46,775 nucleotides of DNA. Source: Gracilibacillus oryzae. Lineage in GTDB: Bacteria; Bacillota; Bacilli; Bacillales; Amphibacillaceae. The translations under genes and the position numbers were made by a program. The notes below the pieces were generated by a model that saw only the letters and a program-made list of their open reading frames with translations, was not told where the DNA came from and did not search any database. This document shows positions 29,112-33,708 of this stretch, in pieces. The stretch lies in NCBI RefSeq assembly GCF_009498735.1, contig NZ_ML762441.1, positions 27,885 through 74,659 of the forward strand, given 5' to 3'. How positions within the stretch are numbered: the first letter of the stretch is position 1; every line of letters begins with the position of its first letter.

Positions 29112-29504
29112 GTGGCACAAGTACAATACTACGGTACCGGACGCCGTAAAAGTTCAACTGCTCGTGTACGTTTAGTACCAGGTACTGGACGTATCGTTGT
29201 AAATAACCGTGATGCGGAAGATTACTTCCCATACGAAACACTTCGTACAATCATTAAGCAACCTTTAGCTGCAACTGAAACTGAAGGCAGCTATGATGTA
29301 TTAGTAAACGTTGATGGTGGAGGTTTCACTGGTCAAGCTGGTGCAATCCGTCATGGTGTTTCTCGTGCATTATTAGAAGCTGATCCAGAATACCGTTCAA
29401 CTTTAAAACGTGCTGGATTCTTAACTCGTGACGCTCGTATGAAAGAACGTAAGAAATACGGTCTTAAAGGCGCTCGTCGTGCACCACAGTTCTCAAAACG
29501 TTAA
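29112..29504 (+). CDS. rpsI: 30S ribosomal protein S9
   Basis: S9 reaches into the P site with its C-terminal tail ending SKR, seen here as APQFSKR. The 130-residue protein starts at a GTG (29112) behind [26 protein letters not shown] is diagnostic. A terminator follows directly. Confidence 0.98.
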
Positions 29505-29518
29505 TATTTCAACATATA

Positions 29519-29553
29519 AAGCACCTTTTCCAATTTGGATTAGGTGCTTTTTT
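29519..29553 (+). terminator. Terminator of rplM-rpsI
   Basis: AAGCACCT (29519-29526) pairs with AGGTGCTT (29542-29549), with partial inner TCC/GGA pairing. Ts follow to 29553. Confidence 0.88.
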
Positions 29554-29680
29554 CATGCGGAAAATTAGTTTATGACTCCATTTTTTCTTCCAGATAGATA
29601 TTCAAATATATAACTTTCAAGTAAACATAATAAATACTAATAGGTGGCTAACAGTTATTTGTGATTTTTTATTTTTAAAA

Positions 29681-29708
29681 TGAACGATTTCCCCCAGTTA
29701 GTCGTATT
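29681..29708 (+). promoter_or_regulatory. ECF-type (SigY-like) promoter of sigY
   Basis: TGAACG (29681-29686), a 16-bp spacer and CGTATT (29703-29708) fit an extracytoplasmic-function sigma promoter. It ends 33 bases before the sigY start and implies autoregulation. The same two hexamers with the same spacing recur before yxlE. The rest of 29554-29741 is AT-rich and holds no other visible feature. Confidence 0.8.
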
Positions 29709-29741
29709 ACATATAAATCATTATTGTATGGAGTAGATCTC

Positions 29742-30278
29742 ATGGATGAAAAGGAATTAATTCGAAAGGCGAAAAAAGGAGATACATTGGCGCTTTCGAA
29801 ACTGCTGCAACAGAATTATTCGTTCCTCGTAAAGTATTTAATGAAAGTTACCCTTCATCCACAAATCGCTGAGGATTTAACACAAGAGACGATGATGAAG
29901 TGTATTGAAAAAATCCAGCTGTATAATGGTGAATCCAAGTTTTCCTCATGGCTCATTACGATTGCAACGAACCTTTTTATCGATCAACAGCGCAGAAAGA
30001 AGCGGGAGAAAAACTGGCTGAAGCAGGAACAAGCCCTCCGAAAAATGAAATGGAATACAGCCAATAGGAACGAAGAATGGACGGATGTCATTGATGTACT
30101 TGCTCGAATTAATGAAGAAATACGTATGCCAATCGTGTTAAAGCATTATTACGGATATTCATATAAGGAAATTGGAAAAATGATGGGTATTGCAGAAGGG
30201 ACAGTAAAATCCCGAGTTTCAAATGGTCTAAAAAGTGTACGAAAGGAGTTGGGTGAAATTGAAGAAGCAGGATCCTGA
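29742..30278 (+). CDS. sigY: ECF-family RNA polymerase sigma factor SigY
   Basis: This protein directs RNA polymerase to a small regulon. It has 178 residues, the length of B. subtilis SigY. Region 2 covers about residues 11-80 (EDLTQETMMKCIEKIQLYNG, SSWLITIATNLFIDQQRR). Region 4 covers about 115-170, with the helix-turn-helix YSYKEIGKMMGIAEGTVKSRV. The ATG at 29742 has GGAG 8 bases upstream; an in-frame TTG at 29724 would add six unlikely residues. Assignment to SigY rests on sequence plus the downstream genes (anti-sigma, YxlD, YxlE, YxlF, YxlG order). The TGAACG promoter ahead of it suggests that it transcribes its own gene. Confidence 0.88.
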   Translation: MDEKELIRKAKKGDTLALSKLLQQNYSFLVKYLMKVTLHPQIAEDLTQETMMKCIEKIQLYNGESKFSSWLITIATNLFIDQQRRKKREKNWLKQEQALRKMKWNTANRNEEWTDVIDVLARINEEIRMPIVLKHYYGYSYKEIGKMMGIAEGTVKSRVSNGLKSVRKELGEIEEAGS

Positions 30279-30603
30279 AAAAAGTAATTCTATGTTGGAT
30301 GATGAAGATGAAGTAACGGTTAAGCAATTAATAGATGGTTTAGAAAAACTGGAACAAATAAATCCAGTATCTGCTCCAAACTTACAATGGTTCCAGCAGC
30401 ATGTTGAATTAGAGAAAAAGAGAATACGAAAAAAACAATGGAAAGACCTCCTTGCGTTTATCTCTTTTGCCGTATTTATGCTTTCGGTTGTGATTGCTGT
30501 CGTTTATCGTCAGCCAATTCTATTTCTTTATTTTCAGCTTGTGGGGATTATCTTATTGCCATTAGCTCTTAATAACACTAGAAAGAAGGTCAGTAATGAA
30601 TGA
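30253..30603 (+). CDS. yxlC: Probable anti-SigY membrane protein YxlC
   Basis: This 116-residue protein has an acidic, soluble N-terminal half (LDDEDEVTVKQLIDGLEKLEQ) and two membrane segments (about residues 60-80 and 85-105). In B. subtilis, YxlC with YxlD restrains SigY. It overlaps the 3' end of sigY by 26 bases. The start is taken as GTG at 30253, just after AAAGGAG (30242-30248); a TTG at 30259 has better spacing and would be two residues shorter. The stop overlaps the yxlD start (ATGA). Confidence 0.75.
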   Translation: MKLKKQDPEKSNSMLDDEDEVTVKQLIDGLEKLEQINPVSAPNLQWFQQHVELEKKRIRKKQWKDLLAFISFAVFMLSVVIAVVYRQPILFLYFQLVGIILLPLALNNTRKKVSNE

Positions 30604-30824
30604 ACTCAACTGAACTAAGCAGCATACCGCTTTTGTTATGGATCGTGATTGCATTCATTCTGATTTGCCAGGGTTCATGGTTGTTTTGGGATGCTCGGAA
30701 GAGGGGACACAATGCTTGGCTATGGGGATTTTTAGGCCTTATTCAATTTCCTACGTATCTTATTATCTATCTTATTTTTATAAGAAAAATATTAAAAAGA
30801 AAAATCTCAGGAGCAGATTCCTGA
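30600..30824 (+). CDS. yxlD: Probable anti-SigY partner YxlD
   Basis: This 74-residue membrane protein has two hydrophobic segments (about residues 9-28 and 40-62) flanking WLFWDARKRGHNAWLWGFLGL, the typical YxlD-type loop. It is thought to act with YxlC to hold SigY inactive. It is translationally coupled to yxlC. Its last codons form the 5' arm and loop of an intrinsic terminator, so the transcript should largely end at the gene's stop. Confidence 0.75.
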   Translation: MNSTELSSIPLLLWIVIAFILICQGSWLFWDARKRGHNAWLWGFLGLIQFPTYLIIYLIFIRKILKRKISGADS

Positions 30825-30834
30825 GATTTTTTTT
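30801..30834 (+). terminator. Terminator embedded in the 3' end of yxlD
   Basis: A perfect 12-bp stem (30801-30812 with 30819-30830) caps a 6-base loop and is followed by more Ts to 30834. The yxlD stop TGA (30822-30824) is inside the 3' arm. It separates sigY-yxlC-yxlD from yxlE-yxlF-yxlG. Confidence 0.9.
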
Positions 30835-30859
30835 GCAGTAAAGAAAGTATAAACGGAAA

Positions 30860-30979
30860 TGTCTAGCTCCAAGCGCCTGCCCCTCGAGATCTTAAGCGAT
30901 CCTGCTATGTGGCAAAGATCGCCACGTCGCAGTTTCGCTTAAGCTTGTCGGGGCAGAACGGGCGCTTTGCGCTTTTCTA
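30860..30979. repeat. Palindromic intergenic repeat of Bacillaceae type
   Basis: This GC-rich element of about 120 bp folds into one long imperfect hairpin. AAGCGCC-TGCCCC (30871-30883) pairs with GGGGCA (30950-30955) and GGCGCTT (30961-30967). CTTAAGCGA (30891-30899) pairs with TCGCTTAAG (30935-30943). The tip is GTGGC (30909-30913) / GCCAC (30921-30925). It resembles, from memory, a widespread intergenic repeat beginning GTCTAGCTCC in Bacillus and relatives. It is the only copy in the window. No coding content. Confidence 0.75.
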
Positions 30980-30986
30980 ACGTAAG

Positions 30987-31014
30987 TGAACGATTAGACA
31001 AACGTAATCGTATT
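30987..31014 (+). promoter_or_regulatory. Second ECF-type (SigY-like) promoter, before yxlE
   Basis: TGAACG (30987-30992), a 16-bp spacer and CGTATT (31009-31014). Both hexamers and the spacer length are identical to the sigY promoter at 29681-29708. The shared bases extend to TGAACGATT and CGTATTA. It lies 31 bases before the yxlE start. Confidence 0.75.
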
Positions 31015-31045
31015 AAGAGTAAATAAACAATTAGGAGGGGAAAAA

Positions 31046-31249
31046 ATGAATGTATCGTTAAATGAAATCCCTTGGGGAGCGATTGCGCCAATTATTGTCT
31101 TACAGTTAATTCTTATGATAACCGCATTAGTCTCTTGTATTAGAGAAGAAAAAACGAACGGCCCCAAATGGATGTGGATTCTTGTTATTCTCTTTATCAG
31201 TTTACTAGGACCGGTGATTTACTTTGTTGTTGGGAGGAGAAATGATTAA
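31046..31249 (+). CDS. yxlE: Small membrane protein YxlE (PLD nuclease N-terminal-like)
   Basis: This 67-residue protein has two membrane segments (about residues 9-33 and 42-63) joined by IREEKTNGPKWMW. The pattern WxWxxxILFISLLGPVIYFVVGRR is that of the PLDc_N domain, common in small Firmicute membrane proteins. Its role in the SigY operon is not established. AGGAGGGG precedes the ATG, and the stop overlaps the yxlF start by one base (TAATG). Confidence 0.78.
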   Translation: MNVSLNEIPWGAIAPIIVLQLILMITALVSCIREEKTNGPKWMWILVILFISLLGPVIYFVVGRRND

Positions 31250-32154
31250 TGGAATTATTAAAGGCATGCGATTTAGCAAAAAGCTTTGGAAATACCCATG
31301 CTGTGAAAGGAATCAATTTTCATATTGAAGAAGGCAGGTGTGTTTCATTACTTGGACCAAATGGGGCAGGAAAAACAACGACATTAAAAATGTTATCTGG
31401 GTTGTTGGAACCGACTTCAGGCAGTATTGATTTTAAAGGGGAAAAAGCAAAGGATTTAAGGGAGTTTATCGGATATTTACCTCAGTACCCTGCTTTCTAT
31501 AATTGGATGAGCGGAAAGGAGTTTCTTGTTTTTGCGGGACAATTGGCAAAGCTCAATCGTAAAGAAGCAGAAATAAGAAGTGAAGAATTACTGGAACGAG
31601 TGGGTCTGACGAATGCGAAGAAAAGAAAGATAGCGGGTTATTCTGGTGGAATGAGACAGCGCCTCGGATTGGCACAGGCACTGATTCATCGCCCGAAATT
31701 ACTAATGTTAGATGAACCTGTTTCAGCACTCGATCCACTTGGCAGACGGGAAGTGCTGGACATGATGAGAGAGATTAAAGAGGAAACAACGATTCTCTTC
31801 TCCACTCATGTCCTTCACGATGCAGAAGAAATAAGTGATGACATTCTTATTATAAATGCCGGGGAAATTGCGGTATCAGGCAGCCTGGGAAGTGTAATGG
31901 AAAAGTATCGACAACCTATTCTACACATTGAATTCGAATCACAGGCTGCCGATTGGCTTAAGAGTATAACAAGTTATAGCGTTGTATCGGAAGTAGACAT
32001 TCAAGGTAATAAAGTCAGCATCGTATTAAACGATATGGTAAATGGGAAGCAAACAATATTACAAGATATCGTCGATAGAAAACTTCCGATTCTTAAGTTC
32101 GAGACTTCTCAAACAACATTGGAAGATTTATTTATGAAGGTGGTGAAGGCATGA
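31249..32154 (+). CDS. yxlF: ABC transporter ATP-binding protein YxlF
   Basis: This 301-residue ATPase has Walker A GPNGAGKTT (36-44), Q-loop YLPQYPAFYNWMSG, signature YSGGMRQRLG, Walker B LLMLDEPVSALD and switch FSTHVLHD. The subfamily is the export-type ATPase used with two-component ABC transporters. It pairs with the adjacent YxlG permease. Substrate unknown; a SigY-controlled exporter linked to toxic peptide or envelope stress has been suggested for B. subtilis. It overlaps yxlG by 4 bases. Confidence 0.88.
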   Translation: MELLKACDLAKSFGNTHAVKGINFHIEEGRCVSLLGPNGAGKTTTLKMLSGLLEPTSGSIDFKGEKAKDLREFIGYLPQYPAFYNWMSGKEFLVFAGQLAKLNRKEAEIRSEELLERVGLTNAKKRKIAGYSGGMRQRLGLAQALIHRPKLLMLDEPVSALDPLGRREVLDMMREIKEETTILFSTHVLHDAEEISDDILIINAGEIAVSGSLGSVMEKYRQPILHIEFESQAADWLKSITSYSVVSEVDIQGNKVSIVLNDMVNGKQTILQDIVDRKLPILKFETSQTTLEDLFMKVVKA

Positions 32155-32930
32155 CACAATGGACTGTTCTTTATCGAAAAGAAATGACAGAAATGGTGCG
32201 GAATTATAAAATTTTATGGGTTCCAATTGTCTTTATTCTGCTAGGCGTCATGCAGCCGGTTAGCTCGTATTATATGCCGGAAATTCTGGACACTTTTGGC
32301 GGGCTACCAGAAGGGACAATCCTTGAAATGCCTACTCCAACTGGGGAAGATGTATTAATGCAGGTTCTTTCTAATTATGGGATGCTCGGTGTACTTATCC
32401 TTGTTTTGAGTGCAATGGGTGTCGTATCCGCAGAAAGACAGAGTGGAGTAGCAGGGATGGTGATGATTAAACCAGTGCCATATTCCTCGTATATATTATC
32501 GAAATGGGCTGGGTTACTGACAATTACACTTATTACATTGTTTATTGGATATGCAGCTTCCTGGTATTATACCAGTTTACTTATTGAAACAGTCGATTTT
32601 GAGCGCATTTTTCAAAGTGTATTGATCTATAGCATATGGTTAGTTTTTGTTGTTACATTGACGCTCTTTTTTAGTACGATAATGAAAGGAAATGGCGGTG
32701 TTGCTTTTGTTACCATTTTTGTGGTCTTTGGCCTTTCGGCGGTTACATCCATTCTGGGGGAGAATATGAAATGGAGTCCGGCTGCAATGACGGAGCACAC
32801 AGGACAGGTCTTGTTGTCAGGAGAACCAGGTTCTGGTTTCTTGCTAGGTTTTATTACAACTATTGCTATTATCATTGTCGTTCTCATCGCATCCATACAA
32901 ATCTTTAAGCAAAAAGAGCTATTGGAATAA
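32151..32930 (+). CDS. yxlG: ABC transporter permease YxlG
   Basis: This 259-residue membrane protein has about six hydrophobic segments and the ABC-2 type permease layout, with an N-terminal RKEMTEMVRNYKILWVP. It is coupled to yxlF by an ATGA overlap and completes the exporter. Downstream (32934-32950) only a weak AAGG/CCTT hairpin with Ts is seen, so termination there is unclear. Confidence 0.85.
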   Translation: MTQWTVLYRKEMTEMVRNYKILWVPIVFILLGVMQPVSSYYMPEILDTFGGLPEGTILEMPTPTGEDVLMQVLSNYGMLGVLILVLSAMGVVSAERQSGVAGMVMIKPVPYSSYILSKWAGLLTITLITLFIGYAASWYYTSLLIETVDFERIFQSVLIYSIWLVFVVTLTLFFSTIMKGNGGVAFVTIFVVFGLSAVTSILGENMKWSPAAMTEHTGQVLLSGEPGSGFLLGFITTIAIIIVVLIASIQIFKQKELLE

Positions 32931-33057
32931 AGAAGGTATCCTGCCTTTTGTATTCTCTTTTGTAAATTTTTCCAGGAGGACCTTAAAGGCATGATATGAA
33001 TAGTCGTAGAAAGAATCCTTTAATATAATTGAAGTAAAGAGAATATGGAGGATAATA

Positions 33058-33708
33058 ATGGATAAAGACAAAGTATTGCAAGAGACAGAAAAAATGGTGA
33101 AAACAGCACTGATAGATGAGAAATCTGGTCATGACTGGTTACATATTAAGCGAGTGAAGGGAACGGCAATAGAAATTGCACAAAAGGAAGGGGCAGATGT
33201 CTTTGTTGTGACGCTTGCTGCATTATTGCATGATTTAGCTGATGAAAAGATTGTAGAGAGCGAAGAAAAGGCTTTATCTGAGATTAGAGACTTTCTTCTT
33301 GAATTAGGTGTAGATGGAGAAGACATCGAACATATTCTAACTATTATTACCACAATGTCCTTTAAGGGAGGAAATAATCGGCCAGTTGAGAGTCTCGAAG
33401 CCCAAGTTGTCCAGGATGCTGACAGGCTGGATGCTATCGGAGCAATAGGTATTGCGCGCTGTTTTACTTATTCAGGCAAAGTTGGTCAACCAATCTATAA
33501 TCCTGATTTGGGAGTTAGAGACCAAATGACTATCGAGGAATATAGAAATAATAAGTCCAGTGCCATTAATCACTTTTACGAGAAGCTGTTGAAACTAAAG
33601 GATCTGATGAACACGGAAACAGCCAAAGAGTTAGCAGCCTCCCGCCATGATTTTATGGAAAAGTTTTTGGAGCAATTTTATCAGGAAACCAGGGAGCAAA
33701 GACCTTAG
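33058..33708 (+). CDS. HD-domain phosphohydrolase (YpgQ/YedJ-like)
   Basis: This 216-residue protein belongs to the HD superfamily of metal-dependent phosphohydrolases. Visible metal-binding parts are the N-terminal His of [10 protein letters not shown] (25), the HD pair in LLHDLADE (58-59) and the late Asp in [13 protein letters not shown] (120-125). Homologues such as B. subtilis YpgQ hydrolyse nucleoside triphosphates to monophosphates and pyrophosphate. Whether this one does so is inference. GGAGG lies before the ATG. A possible TATAAT (33024-33029) is upstream but has no good -35. It runs convergently against the ZIP gene, 21 bases between the stops. Confidence 0.8.

Follow-up and report, generated by a model that had tools for sequence, protein, structure and literature searches.

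The sigY cassette of Gracilibacillus oryzae raises the question of whether an ECF sigma factor, its presumed antagonists and the exporter encoded behind them are wired as one transcription unit or as two. Little is understood about SigY, an ECF sigma factor of the Bacillaceae. The window, which is the whole 46,775-nucleotide stretch of DNA that was analysed, carries the cassette on its + strand. The first gene, sigY (29742–30278), encodes an ECF sigma factor that contains sigma-70 regions 2 and 4 and scores 249.8 bits against the NCBIfam SigY equivalog model (cut-off 194). It is followed by a gene in the yxlC position (30259–30603), encoding a DUF5345 membrane protein (PF17280, 68.9 bits) that we take to be the anti-sigma factor restraining SigY, and by a gene in the yxlD position (30600–30824), which encodes a small membrane protein that was assigned by position and by tblastn to other sigY loci and for which a Pfam search gave nothing over cut-off. 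Further downstream are the yxlE position (31046–31249; PLDc_N small membrane protein, PF13396, 53.1 bits), the yxlF position (31249–32154; ABC transporter ATPase, PF00005, 118.7 bits) and the yxlG position (32151–32930; ABC-2 permease, PF12679, 39.9 bits). The yxl gene names were taken over from B. subtilis. Ribosomal-protein genes lie directly upstream of the cassette, and an Rfam scan of window positions 29500–33100 returned no family at gathering score.

Two SigY promoters are predicted within the cassette. P1 (29681–29708, + strand), the predicted promoter of sigY, consists of a −35 box TGAACG at 29681–29686 and a −10 box CGTATT at 29703–29708, while P2 (30987–31014, + strand), the predicted promoter of yxlE-yxlF-yxlG, has the same boxes at 30987–30992 and 31009–31014. 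An earlier, sequence-only reading of this DNA had described twin TGAACG-N16-CGTATT promoters before sigY and yxlE, and both lie where that reading placed them. The pattern TGAACGN{14,18}CGTATT matches the window twice, at P1 and P2, each with a 16-bp spacer, while shuffled windows gave a mean of 0.04 matches and 0 of 100 shuffles contained two. P1 and P2 also share the flanking bases that had been pointed out, ATT after the first box and A after the second; the same bases are common in the promoters of relatives. Between the promoters lies the predicted terminator T1 (30800–30834, + strand), which overlaps the end of yxlD. Its hairpin (30800–30831) spans the stop codon of yxlD, with a T run behind it, and its folding energy of −20.1 kcal/mol (z −6.4) bears out the terminator that the same reading had placed after yxlD. 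A simple terminator scan gave the T1 hairpin on the minus strand only, apparently because the stem took in the T run. By two criteria, an equivalog score above the curated cut-off and a SigY-type promoter ahead of the gene, the window gene is SigY; as T1 and P2 both sit between yxlD and yxlE, the cassette falls outside the single-transcript B. subtilis type.

The assignment of these promoters to SigY had been drawn from gene order. The sigY loci compared here came from three sources: 61 genomes, 80 named loci and an order-level set of 397 genomes. The order-level search gave matches in 140 of the 397 genomes, with sigY over cut-off in 131, and 28 new loci and 39 stretches, not all of the matches, were taken from it. 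After 10 loci with identical sigY DNA were dropped from 157, there were 147 distinct loci, window included. The form TGAACN-N15/16-CGTNNNA precedes sigY in 142 of the 147, and there was no P1 match in five (L015, L137, L148, L175 and L182). In the 142 promoters the sixth −35 base is G in 114, and the most frequent −10 forms are CGTATTA and CGTCTTA, 38 each. The SigY assignment gains support from the equivalog score and from this distribution, and comparison with the SigY promoters of other loci places both window promoters within the form. The TGAACG/CGT motif thus appears to be tied to sigY well beyond the gene order of one genome, which is short of proof of recognition. The P1 −10 box falls into CGTA and CGTC forms, the former (as CGTATT) in all of the loci described below as the split clade and the latter in most Bacillus-like loci, a choice that might go with SigY residues.

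A yxlE gene is found near sigY in 61 of the 147 loci, and P2 precedes it in 17 of these, window included, and in none of the other 44. Together with Sporosarcina luteola (L045), which has P2 and lacks yxlE, these 17 constitute the 18 loci of the split clade. The SigY proteins of the other 16 P2 loci are 81–95% identical to that of the window, compared with 41–63% for the 44 sigY-yxlE loci lacking P2. In a promoter matrix built from 124 P1 sites outside the clade (5% point of the training sites, 18.3 bits), the 17 P2 sites score 20.4–27.4 bits, the window's P1 and P2 scoring 25.7 and 27.4 bits, while internal sites of the 44 non-clade sigY-yxlE loci reach 12.0 bits at best, with 5.9 for the next. 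The terminator rule likewise finds T1 in 17 of the 18 clade loci but in none of the 44; the exception within the clade, L039, has the hairpin with a weak T run. With neither T1 nor P2 present, one long transcript is likely in those 44 loci. P1 and P2 are each present in 18 of 18 clade loci. The −35 box of P2 is TGAACG in 17 and TGAACA in L039, and the spacer is 16 bp in all 18 at P2 and in 16 of 18 at P1. Alignment of the 16-bp sites shows invariant columns at 12 of 12 box positions versus 10 of 66 surrounding positions for P1, and 10 of 12 versus 6 of 66 for P2; the loci are related, so that these counts are not independent, with kinship bearing on boxes and flanks alike, and L040, which has a short upstream stretch, was left out of one P1 alignment. 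T1 stays a hairpin despite base changes in both arms across the clade.

In 86 of the 147 loci (for example L008, L013 and L017) the search found no yxlE near sigY. In some of these, other small genes follow sigY-yxlC-yxlD, one of them YbjQ-like by eye, and SigY may serve other outputs there.

Beyond the cassette, sites of this form are few. In the 4.63 Mb genome that contains the window, TGAACN{16,18}CGTATT occurs at 7 sites, versus 8 for the reversed control, and the only ones that start with TGAACG are the two in the window; the many unrelated sites of this form that the sequence-only reading had named as counting against it were therefore not encountered. With TGAACGN{15,16}CGTNNTA there are 4 sites including P1 and P2, and 4 for the reversed control. 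The other two, one between ORFs (L118) and one inside a 427-aa ORF (L121), were judged to be chance matches, and a third SigY target in this genome was rejected. The genome (G000) is rich in ECF-like sigma genes: counting fragments, 23 match the SigW model. A scan with TGAACGN{15,16}CGTMTTA of 14 of the 15 clade genomes, that of L047 being left out, yielded 31 sites, 25 of them in the operon itself and 6 elsewhere, versus 12 for the reversed control. One of the 6 is a second S. luteola copy, and no further common SigY target was found in the 14 genomes at this stringency. We also considered whether P2 is a recent copy of P1. Spacer likeness is 0.47 within genomes (n = 16) and 0.46 between genomes (n = 272), and this origin was rejected. 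Within-genome likeness stands out in L149 (0.75) and L143 (0.62).

The gap between yxlD and yxlE is long in the window, and most of it is a genome-wide repeat. The related operon L011 (genome G021; same family, other genus) is 92% and 91% identical to the window in two pieces. It shares the terminator and the two promoters but lacks a stretch of about 140 bp found in the window (30834–30973), where most of a strongly folding, dispersed repeat is located. This repeat is ~125–131 bp long with a fold of −62.9 kcal/mol, and a query with 30855–30985 gave 15 matches in the window's own genome counting itself, 14 of them at 96% identity or more. We take the ~140-base stretch to be an insertion between T1 and P2 that touches neither and is dispensable for the two-unit arrangement. 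In 12 of the 15 clade loci with yxlE in which the gap was measured it is 75–87 bp, with T1 and P2 present; the longer gaps are those of the window, L044 and L049. Given the short-gap loci and L011, we rejected the idea that the long gap caused the split. By eye, the L049 gap contains a stretch similar to the window repeat, and in L044 (7084–7550) T1 and P2 are separated by another insertion, of ~450 bp, in which short units recur. The T1–P2 gap seems to tolerate insertions.

The split arrangement is confined to this one clade, which is scattered across genera; neither this nor the nature of the gap was part of the sequence-only reading. Clade records are named Robertmurraya, Virgibacillus, Sediminibacillus, Oceanobacillus, Cytobacillus kochii, Metabacillus, Sporosarcina and Alkalicoccobacillus, among others, and within the window's genus sigY is over cut-off in 1 of 17 genomes, the window's own. 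In a SigY tree, which was a quick one with many weak forks, the P2 loci require one change (branch support 93, with L045 inside), and so T1 and P2 would have been acquired jointly in a single event, or else lost jointly in the other loci. Among 14 clade loci whose flanking genes were compared, close neighbours (47–99% identical) are common only to the window, L046 and L051; by eye these are ribosomal proteins L13 and S9 and the genes ahead of them. The remaining flank matches are 23–36% identical and were read as paralogues. Because a single change on the tree is combined with scattered genera and mostly differing contexts, a single origin followed by horizontal movement of the cassette between lineages is most likely.

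The S. luteola locus differs in what lies behind P2. Here (L045:7101–8244) the gene behind P2 encodes an alpha/beta hydrolase (PF00561, 35.8 bits) instead of the exporter, and the best YxlG matches in the genome are 33% identical, versus 89% in Robertmurraya korlensis. A second T1–P2 is located elsewhere in the genome (L122:3161), and the sequence after it resembles, by eye, the start of a decayed yxlE. Either P2 outlived its usual target in this species or it was kept for a new one. It is possible, though doubtful, that T1 and P2 act as a portable switch, with sigY-yxlC-yxlD fixed and the genes behind P2 exchangeable, in which case S. luteola would represent a natural swap.

Readable directly from the DNA are two predicted promoters of the same form with a putative terminator between them, an arrangement kept in relatives and belonging to one branch of the SigY tree. 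We consider it probable, at roughly 80%, that the SigY operon is split here into two co-regulated transcription units. RNA polymerase carrying SigY would start at SigY's own promoter, P1, and produce a sigY-yxlC-yxlD mRNA, with T1 stopping most transcripts; it would also start at P2 in the cell and produce a yxlE-yxlF-yxlG mRNA. The sigma factor and its presumed antagonists would then be encoded on one mRNA, and YxlE and the exporter on the other, while the same sigma factor would switch on both units jointly. The amount of exporter would be uncoupled from readthrough out of P1 or out of the upstream ribosomal-protein genes. The two-unit regulon of the sequence-only reading therefore stands as two predicted transcription units that are kept in relatives, without its corollary that the transporter could be induced apart from the sigma and anti-sigma genes. 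As P1 and P2 have like scores and should both answer the same SigY, joint induction is expected, and separate induction would require another sigma factor that prefers P2. We infer that the split more likely sets the dose of the exporter.

Such a second reader could be another ECF sigma factor, chiefly SigW, which would make the exporter inducible without SigY. A −10 box of CGTA is SigW-like, and the genome contains a SigW (one match above the model cut-off, 307.4 versus 243.1 bits) along with further matches to the SigW model. A passage of PMC3498285 also describes B. subtilis SigY-regulated genes as behaving much like SigW-regulated ones. However, the SigW −35 consensus given in a passage of PMC6713349 is TGAAAC, whereas P2 has TGAACG throughout the clade save in L039, and P1 has the same boxes, so that reading by SigW would not single out P2. 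We thus regard this explanation as unlikely. Even less probable is that P2 is minor and that most of the exporter mRNA still comes from P1 through readthrough of T1, as it would if the operon were single. The absence of both T1 and P2 from the other 44 sigY-yxlE loci, where one long transcript is likely, is in line with exporter expression from P1, but the T1 hairpin has been kept through changes in both of its arms, the P2 boxes are conserved and S. luteola retains P2 though the exporter is gone. That P2 is a chance match has a negligible probability. Looser forms of the motif are at background level in the genome, which speaks for chance, but none of the 100 shuffles contained two sites and every clade locus has a P2.

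If the two-unit arrangement holds, the split clade sets up a natural comparison between one sigma factor, its presumed antagonists and its exporter in a single unit and the same set in two units, and this makes membership of genes in the signalling unit or the output directly testable. The 18 P1 and 18 P2 sites should also help define the SigY recognition sequence.

Tojo et al. reportedly described the B. subtilis sigY operon in 2003, and a 2003 paper is said to have dealt with SigY target promoters. The window cassette resembles that operon (sigY-yxlCDEFG) in its SigY equivalog and gene order, and its promoters share the TGAACG-type −35 and CGT-type −10 boxes of the B. subtilis consensus. It differs in that B. 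subtilis sigY is described as a single operon, whereas T1 and P2 cut the window cassette in two; in addition, both window −10 boxes are CGTATT, while many other sigY loci have CGTC. Passages of the literature name ybgB as the only other SigY target reported in B. subtilis (PMC3648570), list YxlF/YxlG as an exporter of unknown function (PMC11466899) and describe loss of the SPbeta prophage in SigY deletion mutants (PMC8270828). No account of a split sigY operon was found in titles and abstract openings, mostly of papers outside subscription. ECF sigma factors in general, according to part of PMC8103513, have AAC in the −35 and CGT in the −10 box, positive autoregulation and a co-transcribed anti-sigma factor. 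The window system is similar to these typical systems in both boxes, in its presumably autoregulated promoter and in the adjoining presumed anti-sigma gene, and differs in that a terminator and a second promoter of this type precede its exporter genes. The B. subtilis sigB operon, in a passage of PMC1808063, contains an internal promoter for its own sigma factor and forms two transcription units, as is predicted for the sigY operon of the window. In sigB, however, it is the sigma genes that lie behind the internal promoter, and the outer promoter belongs to SigA, whereas in the window both promoters are predicted to be SigY's and the exporter genes follow the internal one. Internal promoters for an operon's own sigma factor are therefore already known from sigB, and it is the division of the sigY operon by T1 and P2 that appears to be new.
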